Shown one piece after another: positions 5,298 to 56,800 of a stretch of DNA of 64,000 nucleotides. The stretch is taken from assembly GCF_000371805.1 (NCBI RefSeq), contig NZ_AQUK01000001.1, positions 756,268 through 820,267 on the forward strand, given 5' to 3'. Position numbers and translations under genes: made by a program. The notes beneath the pieces were generated by a model. That model saw nothing but the letters and a program-made list of their open reading frames with translations. It had not been told where the DNA came from and did not search any database. This stretch comes from Methanocaldococcus villosus KIN24-T80. Lineage in GTDB: Archaea > AGJL01 > Methanococci > Methanococcales > Methanocaldococcaceae. The first letter of the stretch is position 1. Each line of letters begins with the position of its first letter.

Positions 5298-6482
5298 ATG
5301 CCGATTAAAATACAAAAGGACGCTTGTTTGGTTTGCTATGCATGTCAGGCAGAGTGTCCTACAAAGGCAATAGATATTGATAGCTTTAAAGTTTGTACAT
5401 TATGTTTAAAATGTGCAGAAGTTTGCCCTACAGGAGCTTTAACTGTTGAAGAAACAGAAATAAATGGGAAAAAATTAAAAAGAATTAGTTATAATCCATC
5501 AAAATGTAAAAAATGTGGAGCTTGTGCAGAAGCTTGTAGTGTAGGGATAAAGAAGGTTGATGATGAGTTTCCATATTCAAAGGGACACTGTGTTTTATGT
5601 TTAAAATGTATTGAAACTTGCCCAATAGAGATCATCTCTTTACCAGGAGTTATAGATAAACCAGAAAGAAAAATTCCTGTGGTTAAAGAACCTATATATG
5701 TTACTGATGACTGTGTAGGATGCTCACTATGTGTTCCTGAATGTCCTGTGAATGCTATAACAATAGAAGATGGAAAAGCAGTAATAGATAAGAATAAATG
5801 TATTTACTGTAGCATCTGTGCTCAGACATGCCCATGGAATGCTATAATTGTTGCAGGAAAAATACCTAAAAAGAGAAGAAAAGAAATCAAAAGCTTTACA
5901 GTTGATAAAGAAAAATGTATTTACTGTTTAAAATGTGTTGAAGTTTGTCCTGGGAATAAAGATAAGATAAAACTTATAAAACCAAACCCTGAAGAGTTTG
6001 TTGTAGAACCTCCAAAGGCATGTCCAGCCTGTCAATTGTGTGTTAATATCTGCCCGGTAGATGCATTACATTTAGATGTTAAATTCAGTTCTCCACATCC
6101 TATAACTGATGAGGGTTTAGTTATTATAGAGGAGGATTATGATATATTAAAGAAGTGTGCTTCAGTATGCCCAACTGATGCTATAGTTGTAGACCCTGAA
6201 AAGAAAGAAGTAAGAATGTGTATAGTCTGTGGAGCCTGTACAGTGGCATGTCCAACAGGGGCATTGAAATTAGGTAAGATAGAACATAATGGTAAAGAAT
6301 ATAATAGAATTGAATACTCACCTTATCTATGTAATAAATGTGGAAAGTGTGTTGAAGTTTGTCCAATGAAAACTTTAAAATTAACTAAGAGTAGAATTCC
6401 TTTAAAAGGTTACTGTGTCATGTGTCTCTTATGCTTATCTGTAGCTGAAGCTGAGAAAAAGAAAGTTTTAATGCTAAAATAA
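5298..6482 (+). CDS. vhuB: Polyferredoxin of the Vhu hydrogenase
   Basis: A 394-residue chain of bacterial-type ferredoxin domains with about twelve CxxCxxCxxxC sets, such as [24 protein letters not shown] and [12 protein letters not shown]. This is the MvhB/VhuB polyferredoxin that connects hydrogenase and Hdr to low-potential acceptors, plausibly formylmethanofuran dehydrogenase. The last set, CVMCLLC, lacks the final Cys-Pro and is followed by an Ala/Glu/Lys-rich tail. The ATG at 5298 follows AGGTGAAATA. It is 18 bases ahead of fwuB, consistent with electron delivery to that enzyme. Confidence 0.95.
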
Positions 6483-6500
6483 AAACTTTTGGTGATGAAT

Positions 6501-7805
6501 ATGAAGGTAATTAGAAATGTAGTTTGTCCATTTTGTGGAACTCTTTGTGATGATTTAGAAGTCTTTGTTGAAAATAACCATATAGTAAAAGTTAGACATG
6601 CATGTAGAATTGGAACTGCTAAGTTTTTACACTTTGAAGGTTCAGTAAGATACACAGAACCATTAATGAGAGAAAATAAAAAAGAAGAGTTTAAAAAAGT
6701 AGATTGGGATACAGCTATAGAAGAATCTGCAAGAATATTAGTTGAAGCTAACTGGCCTCTACTATATGGTTGGAGTTCAACTGATACACATGCTCAAGCT
6801 TATGGTATTGAATTAGCCGAATTATTAGGGGCAGTGATAGATAATACAGCAACAGTTTGACACGGACCTTCTGTTCTTGCATTACAAGATGTAGGATACC
6901 CCATCTGTACATTAGGAGAAGTAAAAAATAGAGCTGATTTAGTTATTTACTGGGGATGCAATCCAATGCACGCCCACCCCAGACACATGTCAAGATATTC
7001 AATATTTGCAAGAGGTTATTTCAGAGAGAGAGGTAGAGAAGATAGAACAATGATTGTAGTTGATCCAAGAGAAACAGATACTGCTAAATTAGCAGATATC
7101 CATTTAAAAGTTGAACAGCATAAGGATTATGAATTGATATCAGCTATGAGAGCTATACTAAATGGCTTGGAAATAAATGCTGACAAAGTTGCTGGAGTTC
7201 CTGTAGATTTAATCTATGAAGCTGTAGAATTATGTAAAAATGCTCAATTTGGGCAGTTATTCTTTGGTATGGGAATGACAATGAGTAGAGGTAAGCATAG
7301 AAATATAGATAATGCTATTCAATTAGTTATTGATTTGAATAGATTTACAAAGTTTGGTTTAATGCCAATGAGAGGACATTACAATGTCAATGGATTTAAC
7401 CAAGTCTGTACATGGATAACAGGATATCCTTATGCTGTAGATTTCTCAAGAGGATATCCAAGATACAACCCTGGTGAATTTTCATCAGTTGATTTGTTAG
7501 TTAGAGGAGATGTTGATGCAATGCTTAACATAGCTTCAGATCCAGGAGCTCACTTCCCACAAAAAGCTGTTGAGCATATAGCTAAAATACCATTAATATG
7601 TATAGAACCACATAAAACTCCAACTACAGAGTTAGCAAATATTATCCTTCCACCAGCTTTAGCAGGAGTTGAGACAGAAGGTACTGCTTATAGAATGGAT
7701 GGAGTTCCAATAAAGTTAAGAAAGGTTATTGATCCACCAGAAGGAGTTTTACCAGATAGAGAAATCATTAAACTCTTAATTAAGAAAGTCAAAGAACTTA
7801 AATAA
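6501..7805 (+). CDS. fwuB: Tungsten formylmethanofuran dehydrogenase subunit B, selenoprotein (UGA at 6858-6860)
   Basis: The catalytic subunit, with tungstopterin and one [4Fe-4S] cluster, of the enzyme reducing CO2 in the first step of methanogenesis. It starts [18 protein letters not shown] with N-terminal cluster cysteines. In-frame UGA at residue 120, in NTATV-U-HGPSV, provides the Sec ligand to tungsten. It ends at 7805, 434 residues in all, normal for FwdB/FwuB. ATG 6501 is chosen over upstream TTG/ATG codons because GGTGAT (6491-6496) is then 4 bases away. No SECIS is visible in the 32 bases after the stop. The other Fwd subunits lie near 14-19 kb. Confidence 0.95.
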
Positions 7806-11546: not shown

Positions 11547-12350
11547 ATGAAAAAATTTACCATTTTAATTTTAACTGTGGGGTTTCTACTTATAACACTA
11601 TGTGGATGTACAGAGAAAACACATGACTCTCAAAACAGTGCAAAAATCTACGAAGGGCATAGCATTATAGTCTTATGTGGGGCTGGTTTGATAAAACCTA
11701 TGGAAGAATTGAAAAGAAATTTTGAAAACAAAACTGGAGCAAAAGTAAATGTTCATTATGGAGGTAGTGCTGAATTATTTGGAATCTTAAAAACAACTGG
11801 TGGGGATGTGTTTATCCCAGGGGCATATAAATACACAAAAGATGCTATGGATATAGGGTTGATTTTAAATGACACTGTTAAAAACATAACTTACCATATC
11901 CCAGTTATTATAGTTCCAAAAGGAAATCCTAAGAATATTAAAGATTTAAATGACTTAACAAAACCAGGAGTTAGAATAGCAATAGGAGATCCTAAATCCT
12001 CTGCAATTGGAAAAGTATCTGTAAAAATATTTGAAAAGAACAAGATTTGGGAAAAGGTAAAACCAAATATTGTAGTATATGCTCCAACAGTTAATCAGCT
12101 TTTAATATATGTGGCAACTAAACAAGTTGATGCAGCCATCATTTGGGAGGATATGACTACATGGTCACAGGCAAAAGGAAAAATAGAGGTTATTGAGATT
12201 CCAAAAGATAAAAACATAATAAAAACAATCCCAACAGCAGTTACAACAAAAGCTAAGGATTTGGAAGTTGCAAAAGCATTTAACAATTACATTTCAAGTG
12301 ATGAGGCAAAAACAATATGGGAAAAATGGGGGTTTAAACCATGCAGGTAA
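11547..12350 (+). CDS. modA: Molybdate/tungstate ABC transporter, substrate-binding lipoprotein (ModA family)
   Basis: 267 residues. A hydrophobic signal peptide ends in the lipobox-like LCGC (Cys21), so the mature protein is tethered outside the membrane. The body is a type II periplasmic-binding fold of the ModA family: LCGAGLIKPMEEL, HYGGSAELFGIL, GDPKSSAIGK and KQVDAAIIWEDM. It is shorter than WtpA-type tungstate binders. The start ATG has a strong GAGGTGGAGG. First gene of modABC. It probably supplies tungsten or molybdenum for formylmethanofuran dehydrogenase. Which oxyanion it prefers cannot be told here. Confidence 0.88.
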   Translation: MKKFTILILTVGFLLITLCGCTEKTHDSQNSAKIYEGHSIIVLCGAGLIKPMEELKRNFENKTGAKVNVHYGGSAELFGILKTTGGDVFIPGAYKYTKDAMDIGLILNDTVKNITYHIPVIIVPKGNPKNIKDLNDLTKPGVRIAIGDPKSSAIGKVSVKIFEKNKIWEKVKPNIVVYAPTVNQLLIYVATKQVDAAIIWEDMTTWSQAKGKIEVIEIPKDKNIIKTIPTAVTTKAKDLEVAKAFNNYISSDEAKTIWEKWGFKPCR

Positions 12351-13141
12351 TTTCTTTTAGAAAATTCTGTATATTTATTGCGCTCTTACTAACATCACTA
12401 CTTTTCATAGCAATTATCTCACTGTTTTTAGTCCCAAATCCAAAAGATGTATTGTCCTCAATAAGAACTAAAGAAATGATTTACTCTTTAAAACTTTCAA
12501 TCATAACTTCTCTAATTTCAACTTTCACTGTAATGTTATTATCAATACCCGCAGGTTATGCATTATCAAGATATTCATTTAAAGGAAAAAATATGGTTAA
12601 ATCCATACTTGACTTACCTATAGCATTTCCAGAGTTGGTTTTAGGTTTAGCATTGTTACTCCTCTTTGGTCAAACCTATATTGGAAAGTTTCTTGAGAGC
12701 ATAGGAATACATGTGGTTTTTACAAAACTTGGTATAATTGTTGCTCAGGTATTTACAGCATTACCTTATGGTATAAGGATAATTTACTCCACATTTGAAG
12801 AGATAAGCCCAAGGTATGAATTTGTTTCAAGGGCTCTTGGATATAACGAACTTGAAACATTTATAAATGTAACACTGCCCTTAGCAAAGAATGGATTATT
12901 TGCCTCTACAATCATAACTTTTGCAAGGTGCATGGGAGCATTTGGAGCAGTTCTTATACTTGCAGGAGGTTCTTACTGTTATACAGAAACACTTCCAATA
13001 ACACTCTACTTAAACATATCCTATGGAAATATAGGGATGGCAATTACAAGTGGAATTGTTTTAGTTATAATATCATTCATTGCAATATTTGCATTTGAAA
13101 AATTGGAAAGTAGCATGAGAAAAGGAGAAAATAAAATTTAA
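12341..13141 (+). CDS. modB: Molybdate/tungstate ABC transporter permease
   Basis: 266 residues with about six hydrophobic membrane segments and the ABC permease EAA-type loop RALGYNELETFINVTLPLAKNG, which contacts the ATPase coupling helix. LPIAFPELVLGLALL is typical of the ModB/CysT group. The ATG overlaps the end of modA by 10 bases, giving translational coupling. Cytoplasmic membrane; it works with the neighbouring ModA and ModC. Confidence 0.9.
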   Translation: MQVISFRKFCIFIALLLTSLLFIAIISLFLVPNPKDVLSSIRTKEMIYSLKLSIITSLISTFTVMLLSIPAGYALSRYSFKGKNMVKSILDLPIAFPELVLGLALLLLFGQTYIGKFLESIGIHVVFTKLGIIVAQVFTALPYGIRIIYSTFEEISPRYEFVSRALGYNELETFINVTLPLAKNGLFASTIITFARCMGAFGAVLILAGGSYCYTETLPITLYLNISYGNIGMAITSGIVLVIISFIAIFAFEKLESSMRKGENKI

Positions 13142-13163
13142 TCCTTATTTAGGGTGAGAATAA

Positions 13164-14228
13164 ATGTCATTTATCCAATTAGAAAATGTGAATATTAAAT
13201 TAGGGGAATTTCATCTTAAAGATTGTAGTTTAAGTGTTGAAGAAGGAGATTATTTTACAATTATTGGTCCTACTGGGAGTGGTAAAACTATATTGTTGGA
13301 AACAATAGCAGGTTTTTATAAACCTGATAGTGGTAGAATAATTATGAATGGTATAGATATAACTGAACTTCCACCAGAAAAAAGAAATATAAGTATAGTT
13401 TATCAAGATTGTATGCTTTTTCCAAATATGAATGTTTTTGATAATATAGCATATGGTTTGAGGAAAAAAATTAAAGATAAAGAAACAATAAAAAATGAAG
13501 TCATCCATATCGCAAAAATTTTAGATATTGAACATCTCTTAGATAGATATCCAACAACACTTAGTGGTGGGGAGATTCAAAGAACTGCAATAGCAAGAGC
13601 TCTTATTGTTAAACCAAAACTCCTTCTTATGGATGAGCCTTTTAGTGCATTAGATGTGAAAACAAAAGAGAAATTAAGAAATCTCTTAAAGAAGGTTATT
13701 GATGAATATAACACCACAGTTATCCATGTAACCCATGATCTTGATGATGTTTGGAGTTTAGCTAATAAAGTTGCTGTTATGAGGTATGGAAAAATTCTTC
13801 AAATTGGTACGCCTGAGGAGATATTTAATAAACCTCTTCCAAATTTTGTAGCAGATTTTGTAGGAACAAATGTATTGACTGCTGAGGTTATTGGAAAAGA
13901 AGGAAATTTAACAGTTTTAAATGTTAATGGTTTAACTATTTATTCCACTGATAAATTGGATTTAAATGATAAACTTATAAAGATTTCAATTAGACCTGAA
14001 AAAATTATAATTTTAAATGGACATAATAATCCTAACAAGAAAAATATTTTCACTGGAAAAGTTAAACAAGTTATTAAAAAAGGGTATTTTATATGTTTAG
14101 TTGTAGATATAAATGGCATAAATATAAATATAACAATTACACCAAATACACATTTATTAGATTTTAAAGAAGGTGATGAGATAGATATACTAATCAAACC
14201 AGAAGATGTCCACATCATAAAATATTAA
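13164..14228 (+). CDS. modC: Molybdate/tungstate ABC transporter ATPase with TOBE domain
   Basis: 354 residues. The ATPase domain (about 1-235) has Walker A GPTGSGKT, signature LSGGEIQRTA, Walker B LLLMDEP and the switch HVTHD. The C-terminal 110 residues have TOBE-type oxyanion-sensing features (SIRPEKIIIL, FTGKVKQVIKKGYF). The start ATG follows GGGTGAG. The last 4 bases overlap the convergent fwdC gene. In ModC/WtpC relatives the TOBE domain binds the transported oxyanion and inhibits transport, so feedback control is likely. Confidence 0.92.
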   Translation: MSFIQLENVNIKLGEFHLKDCSLSVEEGDYFTIIGPTGSGKTILLETIAGFYKPDSGRIIMNGIDITELPPEKRNISIVYQDCMLFPNMNVFDNIAYGLRKKIKDKETIKNEVIHIAKILDIEHLLDRYPTTLSGGEIQRTAIARALIVKPKLLLMDEPFSALDVKTKEKLRNLLKKVIDEYNTTVIHVTHDLDDVWSLANKVAVMRYGKILQIGTPEEIFNKPLPNFVADFVGTNVLTAEVIGKEGNLTVLNVNGLTIYSTDKLDLNDKLIKISIRPEKIIILNGHNNPNKKNIFTGKVKQVIKKGYFICLVVDINGININITITPNTHLLDFKEGDEIDILIKPEDVHIIKY

Positions 14229-15046
14229 AATAGGTTAGGATTTTTATCTACTGAAATGTATAATTGCCCTTTTGGTTTCTCATTAACAAAATCTCCTGTT
14301 AATTTATAAAATTTACCTTCTACTTTAACTCCAGGATCTTTTTTCTTTAATTTTATTACAGGATTTTCTACAATACCTTCATATTTAAATGATGGTAATA
14401 AATCTTCTACCTCACCATAAACTACTATAGCCCCAGCTTTCATTTCTCCCCCTAACCTTGGCCCAACATTTCCATTAACAAATATAATTCCTCCATTTTG
14501 ATGTATTCCTAAATACATTCCTGCATTTCCTTTAATGTGTATTTCCCCTCCATTCATAAACTCTCCAGCTTCTGATCCAATATTTCCTTCAACAATTATT
14601 TTTCCTCCACTCATCCCTCTCCAATCTCCTCTATATGATGAACCTAAATAGTTTTTAGCATTACCTTTAATAATAAGCTCTCCTCCTTTTAAATTCATTC
14701 CAGCCCATGAATCTGCATTTCCTTCAACAATTATTTTTCCTCCTTTCATCTCTGCCCCTACACCTATTCCTGCATCACCTTCAACTACAATCTCTCCTTT
14801 TGTCATTTTAGCTCCAATATACTTTAACTTCATTGTTGAGTTTTTTATAATTATTCTTGGCTCACTATCTATCTCATTTAATTCAATATCGAAAATATCT
14901 TCTAATTTAACAATTTTTTTTCCACAGTAGAGTTTTATATCTTTTATTTCATCAATTTTCATACTTTCTATTTTTTCTGGTAATACAGGATCCATCTCTA
15001 CAGGAGAAACTAACTCTTTCTTTAGCTCCAATATCAACTCTTTCAT
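14225..15046 (-). CDS. fwdC: Formylmethanofuran dehydrogenase subunit C
   Basis: About 273 residues. The centre is a run of right-handed beta-helix repeats of the form GGxIxVxGNAGxxxG (GGKIIVEGNAD, GGELIIKGNAKNYLG and others), also found in glutamate synthase alpha. FwdC is the structural subunit that packs against FwdA and FwdB. Start ATG 15046 is chosen because GGTGA lies 4 bases before it. The longer frame would overlap the fwdA end. Last gene of the fwd operon. Confidence 0.95.
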   Translation of the reverse strand: MKELILELKKELVSPVEMDPVLPEKIESMKIDEIKDIKLYCGKKIVKLEDIFDIELNEIDSEPRIIIKNSTMKLKYIGAKMTKGEIVVEGDAGIGVGAEMKGGKIIVEGNADSWAGMNLKGGELIIKGNAKNYLGSSYRGDWRGMSGGKIIVEGNIGSEAGEFMNGGEIHIKGNAGMYLGIHQNGGIIFVNGNVGPRLGGEMKAGAIVVYGEVEDLLPSFKYEGIVENPVIKLKKKDPGVKVEGKFYKLTGDFVNEKPKGQLYISVDKNPNLF

Positions 15047-15065
15047 CATTTCACCAAAAAAGTTT

Positions 15066-16766
15066 TTAGTTAATATCTGTAGCATCTATTTTAATAACTC
15101 TCCAGCTTCTTGCATATTCATCAGAAACTGGATAGTTATCAAGATTTACTGAGTAATATCTCTTAAACTTCTCTTCTAGATCTTTTTCAACCTCTTTCAT
15201 TATATCTTCTCCAACTTGAACATCTAAGTAAATTGTATCTCCAAAGACCTCTTTAACAATTTCTCCATCTTTAACAACAATTTCTCCTCTCTTTAATACA
15301 TATTTAGCAAATCTGAAAGCTCTTTCAATTTTTTTACCATCCTTTTCTTCTGGATCTATTTTATATATAGCAATATCTGCCTCTGCCCCCACACCAAGAT
15401 GTCCTTTAAATTCACTAATTCCTAAAACCTTAGCTGGGTTAGCCCTTGTTACTTTAGCTATATCATATAAATCATACTCTTTATCAACATCTGCTATTCT
15501 TGCTCTCTCAACAGCCCATTTATGAACCTTATTTAACCATTCATCTCTATACTTCTTGCTCATCAACCATGCTATTATTCTTGGATATCTTGTAAATGGT
15601 CCTGCATTTGGATGATCTGTTGATAGAATTAACTTATCTACATCAGTGTAAAGGAACAATTCTAAACCAATAGCCCACTGTAATGCATAAACTGGACCTT
15701 TTGGAGAGTAAATAAATGGCACTACTCCTGAACCTGTTTCTAATTCAACATCACAGTTAGCCCACTTTAATTTATTTGTTCTATGTAAATCATATTCCAT
15801 AGGTCCATCAGCAGTCATAGTTGTAGTTTCATCCAATGTTATTTGCCCAACATCTATCATAATGTGTTTAGATTTATTAACATACTCAGCAATTTCCACC
15901 CCTCTTGCCTCAAAATCTTTCCAAGAAGTTCCACCATAAGAGTGGAATTGAGCATGAGTATTATAATAAGATGTTTCTCTCTCTCCAATCCTTGGTTTGG
16001 CTTTTACATCTTCTAATAATTTCATAGTTTCTATTGTTGTTTCCCAATTTCCTGGATGTCCTAAATTGTTTGGATGTACATGAATAGAGTGGGGTAAGCC
16101 AAGCATCTCATTTACAATTCCCAAACCTTTAACAATTTCTCTTGGAGTTATGTCAAACCCTGGAACTGGATCATCTAAGCTTGTAACATTTAGCCCCCAT
16201 CCCCAAGCTTCTGTTCCTCCTGGATTAACAATTTTTATAGCATAACCTCTTGTAGCTCTTAATACCCAAGCCACATAAGCTGCTAAAGCTTTATAATCTT
16301 TTTCTATTAAATACTGGAAAACAAACCAATTGTTTCCAAAAAGTGGATAAGCAGCTTTATCTATTTGTGGAGTGTCATAAAATTCTTCATGAACGTGCCT
16401 TGCTAATAATGGAGGCATTGCTGGCTCAAAAACTGTTGTATAACCCATTTCACAGTATTGATACCCTGTTTTATATGTTGATGGGACAGAAAACCCTGTT
16501 CCTGATTTTAATCCCTCTTTTTTATATACATCTTTAACACTATCCTCAGGTCTAAATATTCTACCAACATTAACTTTTGGTCCTGCAATGTGGCTATGGG
16601 GATCTACCCCCCCAGGCATTACTACACAGCCAGAAGCATCAATAACTTTAGCATTTTCAGAAACTTTTTCAACTATTTTTCCATCTTTAACACATATATC
16701 CATTTTTTCTCCATTAACACCATTTAAAGGATCATAAACAATTCCATTTTTTATTATGTATTCCAT
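15066..16766 (-). CDS. fwdA: Formylmethanofuran dehydrogenase subunit A (amidohydrolase)
   Basis: 566 residues, full family length. A metal-dependent amidohydrolase related to dihydroorotase. PGGVDPHSHIAG carries the first binuclear-metal histidines. HVHPNN, HAQFHSYGG and STDHPNAGPFTRYPR follow as further metal and active-site segments. FwdA condenses formate, made by FwdB/FwuB and channelled through the complex, with methanofuran. It sits between fwdD (10 bases) and fwdC. No fwdB lies between A and C or elsewhere in this operon. Confidence 0.96.
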   Translation of the reverse strand: MEYIIKNGIVYDPLNGVNGEKMDICVKDGKIVEKVSENAKVIDASGCVVMPGGVDPHSHIAGPKVNVGRIFRPEDSVKDVYKKEGLKSGTGFSVPSTYKTGYQYCEMGYTTVFEPAMPPLLARHVHEEFYDTPQIDKAAYPLFGNNWFVFQYLIEKDYKALAAYVAWVLRATRGYAIKIVNPGGTEAWGWGLNVTSLDDPVPGFDITPREIVKGLGIVNEMLGLPHSIHVHPNNLGHPGNWETTIETMKLLEDVKAKPRIGERETSYYNTHAQFHSYGGTSWKDFEARGVEIAEYVNKSKHIMIDVGQITLDETTTMTADGPMEYDLHRTNKLKWANCDVELETGSGVVPFIYSPKGPVYALQWAIGLELFLYTDVDKLILSTDHPNAGPFTRYPRIIAWLMSKKYRDEWLNKVHKWAVERARIADVDKEYDLYDIAKVTRANPAKVLGISEFKGHLGVGAEADIAIYKIDPEEKDGKKIERAFRFAKYVLKRGEIVVKDGEIVKEVFGDTIYLDVQVGEDIMKEVEKDLEEKFKRYYSVNLDNYPVSDEYARSWRVIKIDATDIN

Positions 16767-16776
16767 AATTTCACCT

Positions 16777-17169
16777 TTATTTTATGTAATATTTTTTCAT
16801 AAGCTCTTCCATACTTAACACTTCTTCATCAGTTTTTTCTACTTCAACATAATAGTCATAATCTCCTTTAAAATATGGCATTCCTGTACTATCAGTGTAA
16901 GGATGAACTACAAGATTAGCCCAAGGTCCCATAGGGATGTATATGCTTCCTTCAGGTAATCTTTCATTAGCTTTTTTAACATAAACAACAACTTCTCCAA
17001 ACTCAGATTTTACTTTAATTTTATCTCCTTCTTTAACATTAAGCTTTTTCATGTCTTCTTCATTCATATAGGCAATTGCAGCAGCTTTTCTATATAACTC
17101 TAAATTTTTTCCAGCCTCTATTCCCTGACCTTGCCAAATAGTTCTACCAGTGTTAAGCTTAAACTTCAT
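16777..17169 (-). CDS. fwdD: Formylmethanofuran dehydrogenase subunit D
   Basis: 130 residues forming a molybdopterin-dinucleotide-binding beta-barrel domain like the C-terminus of formate dehydrogenase alpha: TGRTIWQGQGIEAGK, MNEEDMKKLNVKEGDKIKV, YIPMGPWANLVV. It completes the active-site pocket of the B subunit, which is encoded 10 kb away by fwuB. The ATG follows AGGTGAAATA. It is spaced 10 bases from fwdA and 8 from fwdG. Confidence 0.95.
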   Translation of the reverse strand: MKFKLNTGRTIWQGQGIEAGKNLELYRKAAAIAYMNEEDMKKLNVKEGDKIKVKSEFGEVVVYVKKANERLPEGSIYIPMGPWANLVVHPYTDSTGMPYFKGDYDYYVEVEKTDEEVLSMEELMKKYYIK

Positions 17170-17177
17170 TATTTCAC

Positions 17178-17429
17178 CTAAATCAATTTAAATCTTAATT
17201 CTATAGCATTAACTGGGCAAGCTTCAACACATGCTCCACAACCCCCACATAGTTCAGGATTAACTACTTTAACAGTTCCATTTTCTACCAATATAACAAC
17301 ACTTTCCTCATTATAAGGCCCTTTGCCTCCCCATGTTTCTGGTAGTTTAGCATTTACAGGACATGAAACAACACAGTTACCACAGCCATGACACTTTTCT
17401 TCATGAACTATTAACTCATAAGCTTTCAT
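17178..17429 (-). CDS. fwdG: Formylmethanofuran dehydrogenase ferredoxin subunit G
   Basis: 83 residues with two CxxCxxCxxxCP sets (CHGCGNCVVSCP and CGGCGACVEACP), hence a 2x[4Fe-4S] ferredoxin. In the solved Fwd complex FwdG links the B-subunit cluster to the FwdF polyferredoxin. Tight operon spacing on both sides and the GGTGAGGAA ribosome site support the start. Confidence 0.93.
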   Translation of the reverse strand: MKAYELIVHEEKCHGCGNCVVSCPVNAKLPETWGGKGPYNEESVVILVENGTVKVVNPELCGGCGACVEACPVNAIELRFKLI

Positions 17430-17439
17430 TTCCTCACCT

Positions 17440-18576
17440 TTAATTTGTTGTTAATTTTTTGAAAGCTAATTTCCATGCTAATGCTTCTGGCTCTCTTTCA
17501 AAGTTAATTTTTGTTCTCTTTATTGTTATAGCATTTATTGGACATGCTTTTGAACACGCTCCACAAAGAACACAGAGATCTTGATTAACATAAATCTTTT
17601 CTGTTTTTTTAGGGATATCTTTTAAGCATATTCCACAGGTTTCACATATCTCTTTACTAACAGGATATTCACTTTTACCCTTTATTTTATCAGATTCTGG
17701 AAACTCTATAGCTGAACATGGACAGATAGCTACACAAGCCCCACAGGCATTACAAAGGTTTGTATCAATAATTACTTCTCCTTCAAATGGTTTTTCAACT
17801 TCTATAGCATCTGCTGGGCAAATTAAAGCACACCATCCACAGGTAACACATTTCTCTTTATCAACTTTAGTTTCTCCAGTAATGTCTTTATAAAGCTTAG
17901 CTTTTTTAACTCTCTTTATCATTGGACACTTATAACATATAACTTCAATAGCATCATGAGGACAGACAAATTCACAAACTTTACAGTAAACACATAAATC
18001 CTTATCAACTTTGATATCCAAAACAGGTTTTGGACAGACTGGTGATGGAGGGATATAGTCTAATATAATAGCATCAGCTGGACAGTAATCAGCACAGATT
18101 CCACAGAGAACACATCTATCTTTATTAATATTTATTTCTCCAATAACAAAATTCTTTCTTTCAGCTAACTCCCTATCAACTGTTATAGCATCCCTTGGAC
18201 AGACCATTTCACACTGCTCACACAACACACACTTATCTTGACTAATCTTTATAGATCTCTTTATTTTTGGATAATTCTCATCCTCTTTAATTGATTTTCC
18301 ATTTATTTTTAAGTCCATTGCATCAAATGGACATGCTGCTGCACAGAGACCACAGAGAGCACATGCATCTTTATCTATATCTAACTTTGGAGCATCTACA
18401 AGTCCTTTAGCTATTGCTCCTAAAGGACCAAGATGTATAGCTGAACATGGACAGATGTCATAACATATTCCACAGCCAACACATTTGCTATCTAACCAGA
18501 TTAACTCTCTTTCTTGTTTTCCTTCTCTCTTTATAATTAAACCATCTTCAAAATACTCTTTTATTTGCACTATCAT
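17440..18576 (-). CDS. fwdF: Formylmethanofuran dehydrogenase polyferredoxin subunit F
   Basis: 378 residues. Eight canonical CxxCxxCxxxCP sets (for example CVGCGICYDICP, CALCGLCAAACP, CVTCGWCALICP) plus one incomplete set, CETCGIC, before the last. FwdF forms the electron wire of the Fwd complex. The start ATG (18576) lies inside the upstream HTH-ferredoxin gene (29-base overlap), behind GAGGGAAAATT. Electrons presumably come from the Hdr/Vhu complex or ferredoxin. Confidence 0.94.
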   Translation of the reverse strand: MIVQIKEYFEDGLIIKREGKQERELIWLDSKCVGCGICYDICPCSAIHLGPLGAIAKGLVDAPKLDIDKDACALCGLCAAACPFDAMDLKINGKSIKEDENYPKIKRSIKISQDKCVLCEQCEMVCPRDAITVDRELAERKNFVIGEININKDRCVLCGICADYCPADAIILDYIPPSPVCPKPVLDIKVDKDLCVYCKVCEFVCPHDAIEVICYKCPMIKRVKKAKLYKDITGETKVDKEKCVTCGWCALICPADAIEVEKPFEGEVIIDTNLCNACGACVAICPCSAIEFPESDKIKGKSEYPVSKEICETCGICLKDIPKKTEKIYVNQDLCVLCGACSKACPINAITIKRTKINFEREPEALAWKLAFKKLTTN

Positions 18577-19015
18577 AATTTTCCCTCTTTAAGATTAATG
18601 CATTTGCAGGACAAAGTTCTAAGCATTTTAAACATAACCAACATTTATCTTTATCTATCTTTATTTTCATCCCTTCTTGAGATATTGCTTCACAAATTAA
18701 ACAAGATCCACAGAAGAGGCATTTATTTTCATCCCAATATATTTCAATATCATACAGATTTTTTATCAGATTTTTTATTAACTCTTTATCCTCAATTAAG
18801 TTCTTTATTATCTTAACTCCTTCTCTTGGGGAGAGACTTTCAATAGCTCTTGCTACTCTAATAACTTTCTCTTTTGGATATTTTCCAGTTAAATAGTGAG
18901 AGATAGCTGATCTATTACACTTTAATAACTCAGCTATCTCCTCCTGAGTTAGACCTTTTCTTCTTAATTTCATAGCTACTATAGCTTTTACACCAGAGAG
19001 TATATGTTCAGGCAT
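18548..19015 (-). CDS. HTH DNA-binding protein fused to a 2x[4Fe-4S] ferredoxin; first gene of the fwd operon
   Basis: About 155 residues. Residues 1-60 hold an XRE-type helix-turn-helix (RRKGLTQEEIAELL-CNRSAISHYLTGKYP). Residues 95-155 hold ferredoxin motifs CLFCGSCLIC and CWLCLKCLELCP. Comparable proteins head fwd operons in other methanogens and are sometimes called FwdH. The combination suggests a redox- or Fe-S-sensing regulator of fwd, acting at the palindromes at 19026 and 19093. ATG 19015 is preferred. An upstream TTG (19042) would put the palindrome in the coding sequence and lacks a ribosome site. Confidence 0.8.
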   Translation of the reverse strand: MPEHILSGVKAIVAMKLRRKGLTQEEIAELLKCNRSAISHYLTGKYPKEKVIRVARAIESLSPREGVKIIKNLIEDKELIKNLIKNLYDIEIYWDENKCLFCGSCLICEAISQEGMKIKIDKDKCWLCLKCLELCPANALILKRENYDSANKRVF

Positions 19016-19025
19016 GATTCCACAT

Positions 19026-19040
19026 GTTAGTATTGCTAAC
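19026..19040. promoter_or_regulatory. Palindrome GTTAG-TATTG-CTAAC (operator candidate 1)
   Basis: Perfect 5-base arms, 11 bases upstream of the HTH-ferredoxin ATG and downstream of the proximal TATA box. Binding here would block initiation. The same arms recur at 19093-19107. Confidence 0.65.
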
Positions 19041-19041
19041 A

Positions 19042-19054
19042 AAATATATAAAAA
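19042..19054 (-). promoter_or_regulatory. TATA box of the fwd operon
   Basis: Minus-strand TTTTTATATATTT. Initiation would be near 19022, just before ATG 19015. A second TATA-like TTATATATAA lies at 19079-19088, so two start sites are possible. Confidence 0.45.
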
Positions 19055-19092
19055 TATCTTCTTAAAATAGATGGAAAATTATATATAATAAT

Positions 19093-19107
19093 GTTAGTAA
19101 TGCTAAC
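19093..19107. promoter_or_regulatory. Palindrome GTTAG-TAATG-CTAAC (operator candidate 2)
   Basis: Same perfect arms and spacing as the 19026 site, 67 bases away centre to centre. It lies immediately beside the stop codon of the upstream DUF711 gene and just upstream of the distal TATA-like box. The pair brackets the whole promoter region. Confidence 0.65.
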
Positions 19108-20478
19108 TTAATTTGTAAATCCTTGGAGAGGAGCAGGTATTTTTCCTCCTCTATTAATAAACTTCTCAGAAGAAAATTTATTGACTTTCATAACAATAGC
19201 CTTTCCTAATAATCCACCATATTCAACAATATCTCCTTCTTTAGCTCCTGGAATTGGGATAATTCTAACAGCAGTTGTTTTATTATTTATAACTCCTATA
19301 GCCATTTCATCAGCAATTATAGCAGAGATTGTAGCTTCAGGAGTGTCTCCAGGAATAGCTATCATATCTAAACCAACAGAACACACACATGTCATAGCTT
19401 CTAATTTTTCTAAACTGAGTGCTCCAGCTTTAACAGCTTCGACCATTCCACTATCTTCACTTACAGGAATAAATGCTCCACTTAAACCTCCAGCATATGT
19501 TGTAGCCATTAACCCTCCCTTTTTAACAGCATCATTTAGTAATGCAAGAGCAGCAACACTTCCATGAGTTCCACATTTCTCTAAACCCATAGCTTCTAAA
19601 ATATTAGCAACACTATCTCCTTTAGCAGGTGTTGGAGCTAAGGAGAGGTCTACAATTCCAAATTTAATATTTAATTCTTTACAGATCTCCCTACCTATGA
19701 GCTCCCCAACTCTTGTTATTTTAAAAGCAGTCTTTTTAATTTCATTATGCAAAGTTCCAAAATCTGCATTCTTTAATTTCTCAACAACAGCTCTAACAAC
19801 TCCTGGTCCTGAAATACCAACATTAATAGCCTTATCCCCCTCTCCAACACCATGGAAAGCTCCAGCCATGAATGGGTTATCCTCTGGAGCATTTGCAAAT
19901 ACCACAAGTTTTGCACAGCCAATAGCCTTCTCAGTTTTGTAAGCAGTATCTTTAATAATCTTACCCATTAACTTAACAATATCCATATTAATTCCAGTCC
20001 TTGTTGAAGCTACATTAACAGAAGAACAGACCCTTTCAGTCATTTTCATCATATCAGGAATAGAGTTTATTAAACAGAGATCTGCTTCAGTAGCATCTTT
20101 ATGTACTAATGCCGAATATCCTCCTAAAAAATCAACTTTCACTTTTTTAGCAGCTTTATCTAAGGTTTTCCCAACTTCCACACAAGCTCCTATTTTATCA
20201 TCAATATTTTTTAAAGCTCCTCCTATCAGTAGAGCTATAGGAGTTACAGCCACTCTCTTATTAACAATAGGTACACCATATTTCTCTGAAATTCTATCAG
20301 CTGTTTCTACTAAATTTTCAGCTGAAGAAACTATTTTATTGTAAATATTTTCTTTTAGCTCATCCAAATCATTTGATACACAATCTAATAAGCTAATTCC
20401 CATAGTAACTGTTCTTAAATCTAAATTCTCCATTTTTATCATTTTTATTGTTTCAATTATTTCTTCTGGTAAGAACAT
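19108..20478 (-). CDS. PFL-family protein DUF711 (UPF0210)
   Basis: 456 residues matching UPF0210/DUF711 along its length: [15 protein letters not shown] near the start, then GVEA-type segments [31 protein letters not shown] and [18 protein letters not shown]. The family has a glycyl-radical-enzyme-like fold, but no glycyl radical activase partner is visible and no biochemical role is established. The start ATG overlaps the DUF167 gene by 22 bases, so translation is coupled. Downstream, within a few bases, the fwd promoter begins. Confidence 0.85.
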
Positions 20479-53821: not shown

Positions 53822-56800
53822 ATGGTTGAAGCTCTTAATGAACCACAAACAGTAGAAAATTTAGCAATAGAAATATTTAAAAAGTTGGGTTATAACTACA
53901 AACATGGTTCAAAACTAACTCCTGAAAATAAAGAAAGACCAACTTATAGAGATGTAATATTAAAAAATAGGTTCATCTCTGCAATAAAAAAACTAAATCC
54001 TTGGCTTAATGATAAATTAGCAGAGGAAGTTTATAAAATAGTATCAAATATAGATCATCCAGACCCTATAATAAGAGGAAAAATATTTTATGACATGCTA
54101 ATAAGTGGAGTTAAAATAACCTATAAAGAAAGCTCTAATGAAAAAACAAGGATTGTAAAACTTATAGACTTTTCAAATCCATATAATAATGATTTCTTAA
54201 TATCAAACCAATTTGAAGTTGAATACTATAAAGAAAACAACAAATACAGAATTCCTGATTTAGTGGTCTTTATAAATGGTATTCCAATAGCAATATTTGA
54301 ATTTAAAGGATTTAAATCTGATTATACAGCAAAAGATGCATTTGAAGATCATAAAATAAAAAAGGAAGATATACCACAACTTTATCAATATGCACAAATA
54401 TTAGTAGCAAGTGATGGATTAGAAACAAGATATGGCTCTCCAACTTCAGATTGGGAAAGATTCTTTGTTTGGGAAGGTATAGAAAGTGATGATGATGTTA
54501 TTGTTATAGAAACAGAAGAAAAGACTATATATGAGTATAAATGTAAAACTTTAACAAGTTTAGAAGTCCTACTCCTTGGTTTATTTGACAAAAGAAGATT
54601 AATTGAATACATAGAAGACTTTATAATATATGATAAAAGTGGTAAAGAATATATCAAAAAGATAGCCACTTACTACCAATTCTATACTGTAAAAAAAGCT
54701 ATTGAAAGAACTATAAAGGCAGTAAAAGGAAAAGATAAAAGGATTGGTGTAGTTTGGCATACTCAAGGTTCTGGAAAATCATTAACAATGCTATTTTATG
54801 CAAAAAAAGCATTAAAGGTTAAAGAACTTGAGAACCCAATTTTATTATTTATAACTGACAGAAGAGAACTTGATGAACAGTTATATGGAATATTTAAAAA
54901 TGTATTTCCTACTGCAAAACATATTGAAACAATAAAAGAACTACAAGAAACATTAAAAAAGGCTAAATCTGGAATATTTTTTGCCACAATACAAAAATTT
55001 GGAAGGAAAAATAAAGAAGAATATCCTTTTTTAACAGACAAAAACAACATTATTGTAGTTGTTGATGAAGCACACAGAAGCCAATATAGGCAATTAGCTC
55101 AAAACTTAAGAAAAGCCATTCCAAATGCATCATTTATAGGATTTACAGCTACACCAATAGATTATAGGGATAGATCAACAACTTTAGTATTTGGGGATTA
55201 TATAAGTATTTATTCAATAGACAAAGCAAAAAGACATGGAGTTGTTGTTCCAATATACTATGAAGCAAGATGCATAGAATTACATTTAACCAATGAATTT
55301 ATAGATCTTGAATTTGAAGAAATTTCTGAAAATTTAATTCCTGAAGAAAAAGAAGAGATAAAAAGAGCCTTTGCAAAGCTTGAAAGAATAATGCTAACTG
55401 ATGAATACCTTGACAAAATATCAAAAGATATAGTAGAACATTTTAACAAAAGAGTTACAGATCTTGATGGTAAAGCAATGGTGGTCACAATAAGTAGAAA
55501 GGTTGCTGTAGAATTATATAAAAGAATTACAAAACATCCTAATGCTCCTTCTGTTGCAGTAGTAATATCTGGAAACAAAAGTAAAGATCCTAAAGAATTT
55601 CATGATCATATAAGATCAAAAAAAGAGTTGGAAGAGTTAGCAAGGAAATTTAAAGATCCTAATTCTGATCCCAAGATGGTTATTGTTGTAGATATGTGGT
55701 TAACAGGTTTTGATGTTCCATGCTTACATACAATGTATTTCTGGAAACCTATGAAAAACCATTCCTTAGTTCAGGCTATAGCAAGAGTTAATAGGGTGTT
55801 CAAAAACAAGCCGGGGGGTTTAATTGTTGATTATATTGGAATATCAGATGACCTAAAAAAATCACTATCTAAATATACAAGTGAGCAAATTAAGGAAGTT
55901 TTAACAAATATTGAAGAAATTGTGGCATTATTAAAAGAGAAATACAAAATAGTTTCTTTATACTTTAAAGATTTAAACTATAAAAATTGGAAACACTTGA
56001 GTTCAGAGGAGTTAGCACATCTAACAGCAAAGGCTTATGAAATGATAGCAAAAGATGAAAAAATTAAGGAAGAATTTTTAAAGAATTTCATAGCTTTAAA
56101 AAAGCTTTATCTATTAGCATCTCCACATCCAGAAGCTATAAAGATAAGAGAAGATCTGGCCTTCTTTGAAATGATTAAAAAAATGTTAGTTAAGTATTCA
56201 ATAAGGAAAATTAAAGAATTGTCAAAAGAAATAGAAAAAGATATGTCAAGATTAATATCAAAAAGTGTTTCAGCAAGTGACCCAATAGATGTATTTGAAC
56301 TCTTAAATAAAGATAAACCAGATATTTCAATATTTTCTGATGAATTTTTAGATAAAATTAAAAATATAGAATATAAGAATCTTGCAGTAGATATGCTTAT
56401 TAAAATCCTAAATGATAATCTAAAAGTTAAAACAAGAACAAATCCTTGGAGATATAAAAGTTTGTATGATAGATTAAAAGAATTGATAGATAAACATAAC
56501 AGAAAGATAATAGAAACTTCAGAAATGATTTTAAAACTTATTGAAATAGCCAAAGACATTAAAAAGGCTGAAGATGAAGGAAAAAAGTTAAACCTAAATG
56601 AGGAGGAATATACATTCTATTCTTTATTATTATCATATCCAAATTTACCAATAGAAGAAAAGGAAAAGATTAAAGATATTGCAAAAGAAATTGCAAAAAC
56701 ATTGTCAGGATACATAAAAGTTTCAGATTGGAAAAGAAATAAATTTATAAAGTCTAAGATAAAAGCAGAGGTAAAAAGAATATTAATGAAAAAAGGTATT

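Follow-up and report, generated by a model that had tools for sequence, protein, structure and literature searches.

The window analysed here, a 64-kb stretch of the Methanocaldococcus villosus genome, carries on its minus strand the operon fwdHFGDAC for the tungsten formylmethanofuran dehydrogenase, the enzyme that opens the route from CO2 to methane. Judged by its sequence, the first gene of this operon, fwdH (18548–19015), is orthologous to Methanothermobacter FwdH. It is followed by fwdF, which encodes a polyferredoxin (17440–18576; NCBIfam NF042909 over cut-off) and overlaps the 3′ end of fwdH by 29 bp, by fwdG for a ferredoxin subunit (17178–17429; Fer4 matches and gene order), and by fwdD (16777–17169; NF042908 over cut-off), fwdA (15066–16766; NF042911 over cut-off) and finally fwdC (14225–15085; NF042910 over cut-off). 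Genes for a tungstate/molybdate-type ABC transporter (11547–14228) lie tail to tail with fwdC and likely serve the tungsten supply of Fwd. The catalytic subunit gene fwdB is located apart from fwdHFGDAC in Methanococcales. In the window, it lies at 6489–7805, contains an in-frame TGA (selenocysteine) and is preceded by a large polyferredoxin gene (5298–6482). A further TGA, likely also a selenocysteine codon, apparently splits an hdrA-like gene (388–2364) between positions 978 and 994. Two related genomes, G004 (L156 7773–8042) and G003 (L157 7909–8139), have an extra gene of 76–89 aa between fwdA and fwdC that is absent in the window.

The start codon of fwdH, assigned by homology, is the ATG at 19015, and the resulting protein has 155 aa. 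A start at TTG 19042 was rejected: the reading frame would then include the proximal palindrome described below, and homology favours the ATG, so the palindrome lies upstream of the gene. FwdH combines an XRE helix-turn-helix (HTH) domain (approximately residues 2–88) with a 2[4Fe-4S] ferredoxin fold (approximately residues 90–145). This fusion had been read from the letters alone in an earlier note on this DNA, and it is borne out by Pfam, where HTH_31 (29.6 against 27 bits), HTH_3 (27.7 against 23 bits) and Fer4 all exceed their curated cut-offs. The eight cysteines are conserved in most of the orthologs aligned, one of which has them at a slightly different spacing; the first motif of the window protein is CX2CX2CX2C without proline. 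The best of five AlphaFold2 models (pLDDT 86.5; the remaining four 62–68) consists of six helices, with the HTH formed by residues 24–31 and 35–43, and then of beta-alpha-beta twice. Fold matches of the C-terminal part in the PDB are 2[4Fe-4S] ferredoxins and FwdF, none of which reaches E 0.001; by target length, the TM scores are 0.75 for 1fdn and 0.70 for 1fca. The N-terminal part matches the XRE controller protein C.Esp1396I, also short of E 0.001. Among the PDB fold matches, there is no solved structure with the entire HTH and ferredoxin make-up. As modelled, FwdH shows the (beta-alpha-beta)2 fold of 2[4Fe-4S] bacterial ferredoxins along with their two four-cysteine motifs. Similarly, as in XRE (HTH_3) regulators, an HTH over its curated cut-off is accompanied by palindromic operators at the protein's own promoter. 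No Pfam match to an Rrf2, CRP/FNR or ArsR-like winged helix domain was found in FwdH, and membership of the Tfx family (TIGR00721) was rejected at 24.3 bits against a cut-off of 60.25.

The earlier note had described two GTTAG-N5-CTAAC palindromes within 82 bases, one of them between the TATA box and the start codon, and no other copy in the window. The first two statements are confirmed. The copies are GTTAGTATTGCTAAC at 19026–19040 and GTTAGTAATGCTAAC at 19093–19107, spanning 82 bases, with 10 bp between the half-site centres of each. The proximal operator, extended to TGTTAG-N5-CTAACA (19025–19041), is placed 3′ of the TATA box and 5′ of the ATG, and its position is conserved in relatives. 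The distal operator (19092–19108) is conserved as well; its centre is 67 bp from the proximal centre, and its final base falls within the stop codon of the DUF711 gene upstream. Over the whole window, three copies were observed against 0.05 expected from dinucleotide-preserving shuffles. The third statement fails, as an exact copy exists at 56011–56025, within an hsdR-type (type I restriction-type) gene. A fourth exact copy in the genome (698055) lies within an nrdD-type coding gene. As candidate operators, these two were set aside, because each falls within the coding sequence of an unrelated gene and appears to be a chance occurrence.

The stretch between the operators is conserved and holds two TATA boxes that point away from each other. 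The TATA box of the fwdH promoter reads TTTATATA (minus strand, 19045–19052), and together with the predicted BRE (AGAAGATATT TTTATATA) it occupies 19045–19062. The second TATA box, TATATATA at 19080–19087, faces backward on the plus strand and with a possible BRE (GGAAAA) covers 19070–19087; it is conserved in relatives. The proximal operator centre is 25.5–27.5 bp from the fwdH TATA box in most Methanococcaceae and Methanobacteriales, which places it over the predicted start site, and 15.5 bp from it in the window. The distance from the distal operator centre to the backward TATA box is 14.5–16.5 bp in nearly all promoters. The backward TATA/BRE also stands beside the distal operator in nearly all of them, though the upstream gene is often co-directional; an upstream RNA or a promoter decoy is a possible explanation.

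FwdH is widespread in two orders. An ortholog is encoded in all 36 Methanococcales genomes, with fwdF as the next gene in every case (after a gap of approximately 420–500 nt in three). A query of genome contigs with the single protein gave no match, and a query with the alignment did. Full-length homologs (profile E 1e-31 to 1e-37) occur in Methanobacteriales, as the first gene of fwdHFGDACB; in this order, 111 of 151 genomes have one, and 16 of 19 genera are represented. The window protein and Methanothermobacter FwdH, from a genome that we take to be M. thermautotrophicus delta H, are 33% identical over 156 columns (E 5e-32). Diverged paralogs occur in two Methanococcaceae, G033 and G022 (L153 5950–6459, L154 6394–6876), where they adjoin 2-oxoacid:ferredoxin oxidoreductase genes. 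Other ferredoxin enzymes may thus also be regulated by proteins of the HTH-ferredoxin architecture.

The operators were searched for with a palindromic PWM trained on the Methanococcales fwdH promoters themselves. In 35 of these 36 promoters, a first site exceeded the 99th percentile of shuffles, and in 25 a second was present at the expected distance. Since the training set consisted of the same promoters, a motif-free score, combining palindromy with outer GT/AC, was used as well. By this score, the sites of 22 Methanococcaceae pair best at 77 bp and those of 14 Methanobacteriales at 78 bp; both peaks exceed all 100 shuffled sets and the fwdB-promoter control. In 20 further Methanobacteriales genomes, the distance is again 78 and 77 bp. 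The operators are 64–67 bp apart in Methanocaldococcaceae, the family of the window, and the motif-free test does not single out these distances there. The distal operator is the better conserved of the pair. The proximal one is degenerate in about seven Methanocaldococcus genomes, roughly half of the Methanocaldococcaceae, and in three others. No operator was found in the fwdH promoter of G003, where the gene immediately preceding fwdH is of the LysR type (L157 3048–4464). An intragenic palindrome, TGTGAG-N5-CNCACA, is present at fwdH codons 107–112 in Methanocaldococcus genomes (L006–L017), approximately 422 bp from the distal operator. Neighbouring codons vary, but its codons TGT, CTC and ACA are the same in 11 genomes and also in G003. 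In genomes whose proximal operator has decayed, this palindrome may serve as a third operator. In one further promoter, L128, an extra GTGTA-N5-TACAC site (G226:C20:31991–32007) lies 335 bp upstream of fwdH, near a divergent mobB-like gene.

The half-site itself changes from clade to clade: GTTAG in the window and the E37 group, GTGAG, GTGTG in Methanothermobacter and its kin, and GTGTA in Methanobrevibacter-like genomes. Both sites of one promoter change jointly. The recognition helix of FwdH tracks the half-site, with TNRTE accompanying GTTAG, NRST accompanying GTGTG and DRST accompanying GTGTA. Such covariation is predicted if FwdH binds the sites, yet it is confounded with ancestry, the compared relatives not being independent of one another. 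Sequence comparison brings out the protein architecture, the operon, two conserved sites, their fixed spacing, their joint evolution and their restriction to this promoter.

The genes upstream of fwdH vary in identity and direction among relatives, and in several genomes, including that of the window, the distal site marks the end of a co-directional gene. Both sites are therefore taken to serve fwdH, and their assignment to a divergent neighbour was rejected, since the gene upstream is not constant and in many cases runs in the same direction. A wider regulon was rejected too. When 36 Methanococcales and 17 Methanobacteriales genomes were scanned with the strict pattern, the site was found almost only at the fwdH promoter, and nearly all non-fwd matches fell in coding regions. 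No site was found in the fwdB promoters of 30 genomes, none upstream of fwdB in the window, and no exact copy in viral contigs. A PWM match at position 996 of the window was discarded, since it sits at the start of the hdrA coding stretch. The varied upstream genes, the site-free fwdB promoters and the other copies, confined almost wholly to coding regions, argue for a local switch of one operon. The earlier proposal that FwdH controls step one of methanogenesis is consequently retained for fwdHFGDAC and not for fwdB, which in Methanococcales lies elsewhere and without a site. In Methanothermobacter genomes, TGTGTATGAGACACACA is conserved before a methyltransferase-like gene (L158 1485, L162 1467), which by sequence is a possible second target.

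The proposed autoregulation of FwdH, with control of the co-directional fwdF-G-D-A-C, is well supported by these comparisons. It had been put forward in the earlier note, which would have given it up if close relatives lacked the palindrome in front of fwd. The site pair passes this check, as nearly all relatives have it before fwd and so do members of a second order. We consider it reasonably probable that FwdH is a local transcriptional autoregulator with two operators and cluster-tuned repression and not, or not only, an enzyme subunit. We infer that FwdH itself binds the sites, that its dimers cooperate, that repression prevails over activation and that sensing depends on the clusters. A homodimer of the XRE domain would bind each 15–17 bp palindrome through half-sites 10 bp apart. 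The two operators would bracket the fwdHFGDAC promoter, with the proximal one between the TATA box and the start codon, covering or adjoining the transcription start, and the distal one 64–78 bp upstream of the proximal one, beside the oppositely facing TATA box. Two bound dimers, probably cooperating across 6–7 helical turns, would block RNA polymerase from the promoter, and the C-terminal 2[4Fe-4S] ferredoxin domain would tune the strength of DNA binding. Redox sensing is plausible given the predicted ferredoxin fold. With H2 and reduced ferredoxin plentiful, the clusters would be reduced and FwdH would repress; with the clusters oxidised or lost, it would release the DNA and Fwd would rise. 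In M. maripaludis under H2 limitation, FwdF, FwdD, FwdA and FwdC rise by 0.20 to 0.28 log2 (PMC2723118), a small change that agrees with FwdH leaving the DNA as the ferredoxin pool becomes oxidised. For Methanothermobacter, the tungsten enzyme was reported as constitutive (PMC3087415), for which reason homeostasis is favoured over on/off control, and the dynamic range of the switch may be small.

Other readings of the same features have to be weighed. FwdH could sense cluster occupancy, that is, iron or Fe-S supply or oxidative damage, instead of ferredoxin redox, and could match the output of an Fe-S-rich enzyme to cluster supply, as IscR and SufR do. The conservation of two cluster motifs and the richness of the controlled operon in 4Fe-4S proteins are consistent with this, but a bacterial-type 2[4Fe-4S] ferredoxin fold is suited to electron transfer and H2 limitation alone shifts Fwd levels (PMC2723118), which makes this alternative rather unlikely. 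The better conservation of the distal site and its fixed distance of 14.5–16.5 bp from the upstream TATA box would also agree with an activator that recruits TBP/TFB there, the proximal site providing feedback. The best-placed TATA/BRE for fwdH is, however, the downstream one, and a proximal site approximately 26 bp away in Methanococcaceae and Methanobacteriales is in a repressor position; activation is accordingly judged distinctly unlikely. It is improbable that FwdH is an electron-transfer subunit and that the palindromes belong to another regulator. FwdH is listed among the enzyme subunits (PMC3087415) and its ferredoxin part resembles FwdF, but the enzyme architecture has been described as A, B, C, D, F and G, without H (PMC11656701), and the HTH part has no convincing match among PDB chains. 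The sites, moreover, co-occur with fwdH and shift along with its recognition helix, and the 10 bp half-site spacing fits an XRE dimer. Leader RNA hairpins or chance are highly improbable: the proximal copy of the window folds weakly (−4.3 kcal/mol), but copies from other clades barely fold, the distal copy is upstream of the predicted promoter, and position and spacing are conserved across relatives.

The proposed autoregulator has several known counterparts. The Methanothermobacter FwdH (first gene of fwdHFGDACB, MTH1553 type) has the same HTH and ferredoxin make-up, the same place in the operon and likewise two operators, spaced by 78 bp; it differs in its half-site, GTGTG instead of the GTTAG of the window, and in an operon that ends with fwdB. 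The XRE autoregulators C.Esp1396I and the lambda and 434 repressors share the HTH_3-type domain and palindromic operators of about one turn at their own promoters, where two or more operators are present. They differ from FwdH in having no ferredoxin domain, other DNA sites and another biology. Like FwdH, Tfx is an HTH protein linked with an operon for a formylmethanofuran dehydrogenase, though a different operon, and to our knowledge it has no ferredoxin domain of the FwdH kind. This HTH regulator adjoins the molybdenum fmdECB operon of Methanothermobacter (PMC3087415). With IscR, SufR, FNR and the methanogen redox regulator MsvR, FwdH would share the logic that cofactor state sets DNA binding. 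These proteins use other DNA-binding folds, and we know of none among them in which an XRE domain is joined to a 2[4Fe-4S] ferredoxin.

The FwdH gene is already known by name and is usually listed as an enzyme subunit. In a search of the open literature, no description of FwdH as a regulator or of FwdH operators was found. What appears to be new is the proposed XRE autoregulation with a putative ferredoxin sensor domain. A broader proposal is offered tentatively, as somewhat short of probable: class I methanogens (Methanococcales and Methanobacteriales) would share an ancestral XRE-ferredoxin repressor that reads the reduction of the ferredoxin pool and exerts feedback on the opening step of methane formation from CO2, with operators that have stood 77–78 bp apart since before the orders split and that bracket back-to-back TATA/BRE elements. 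The subunit label would then be a long-standing misassignment.

Genetic tools exist for M. maripaludis and Methanothermobacter. The joint shift of operators and recognition helix offers a natural data set on the binding specificity of XRE proteins. Little is known of the ways in which hydrogenotrophic methanogens tune the entry into CO2 reduction, and FwdH had no clear role. If the proposed regulation is true, one small protein would tie the output of the CO2-fixing enzyme to the state of ferredoxin or of the FwdH clusters in most methanogens that use H2, gut and vent lineages among them.
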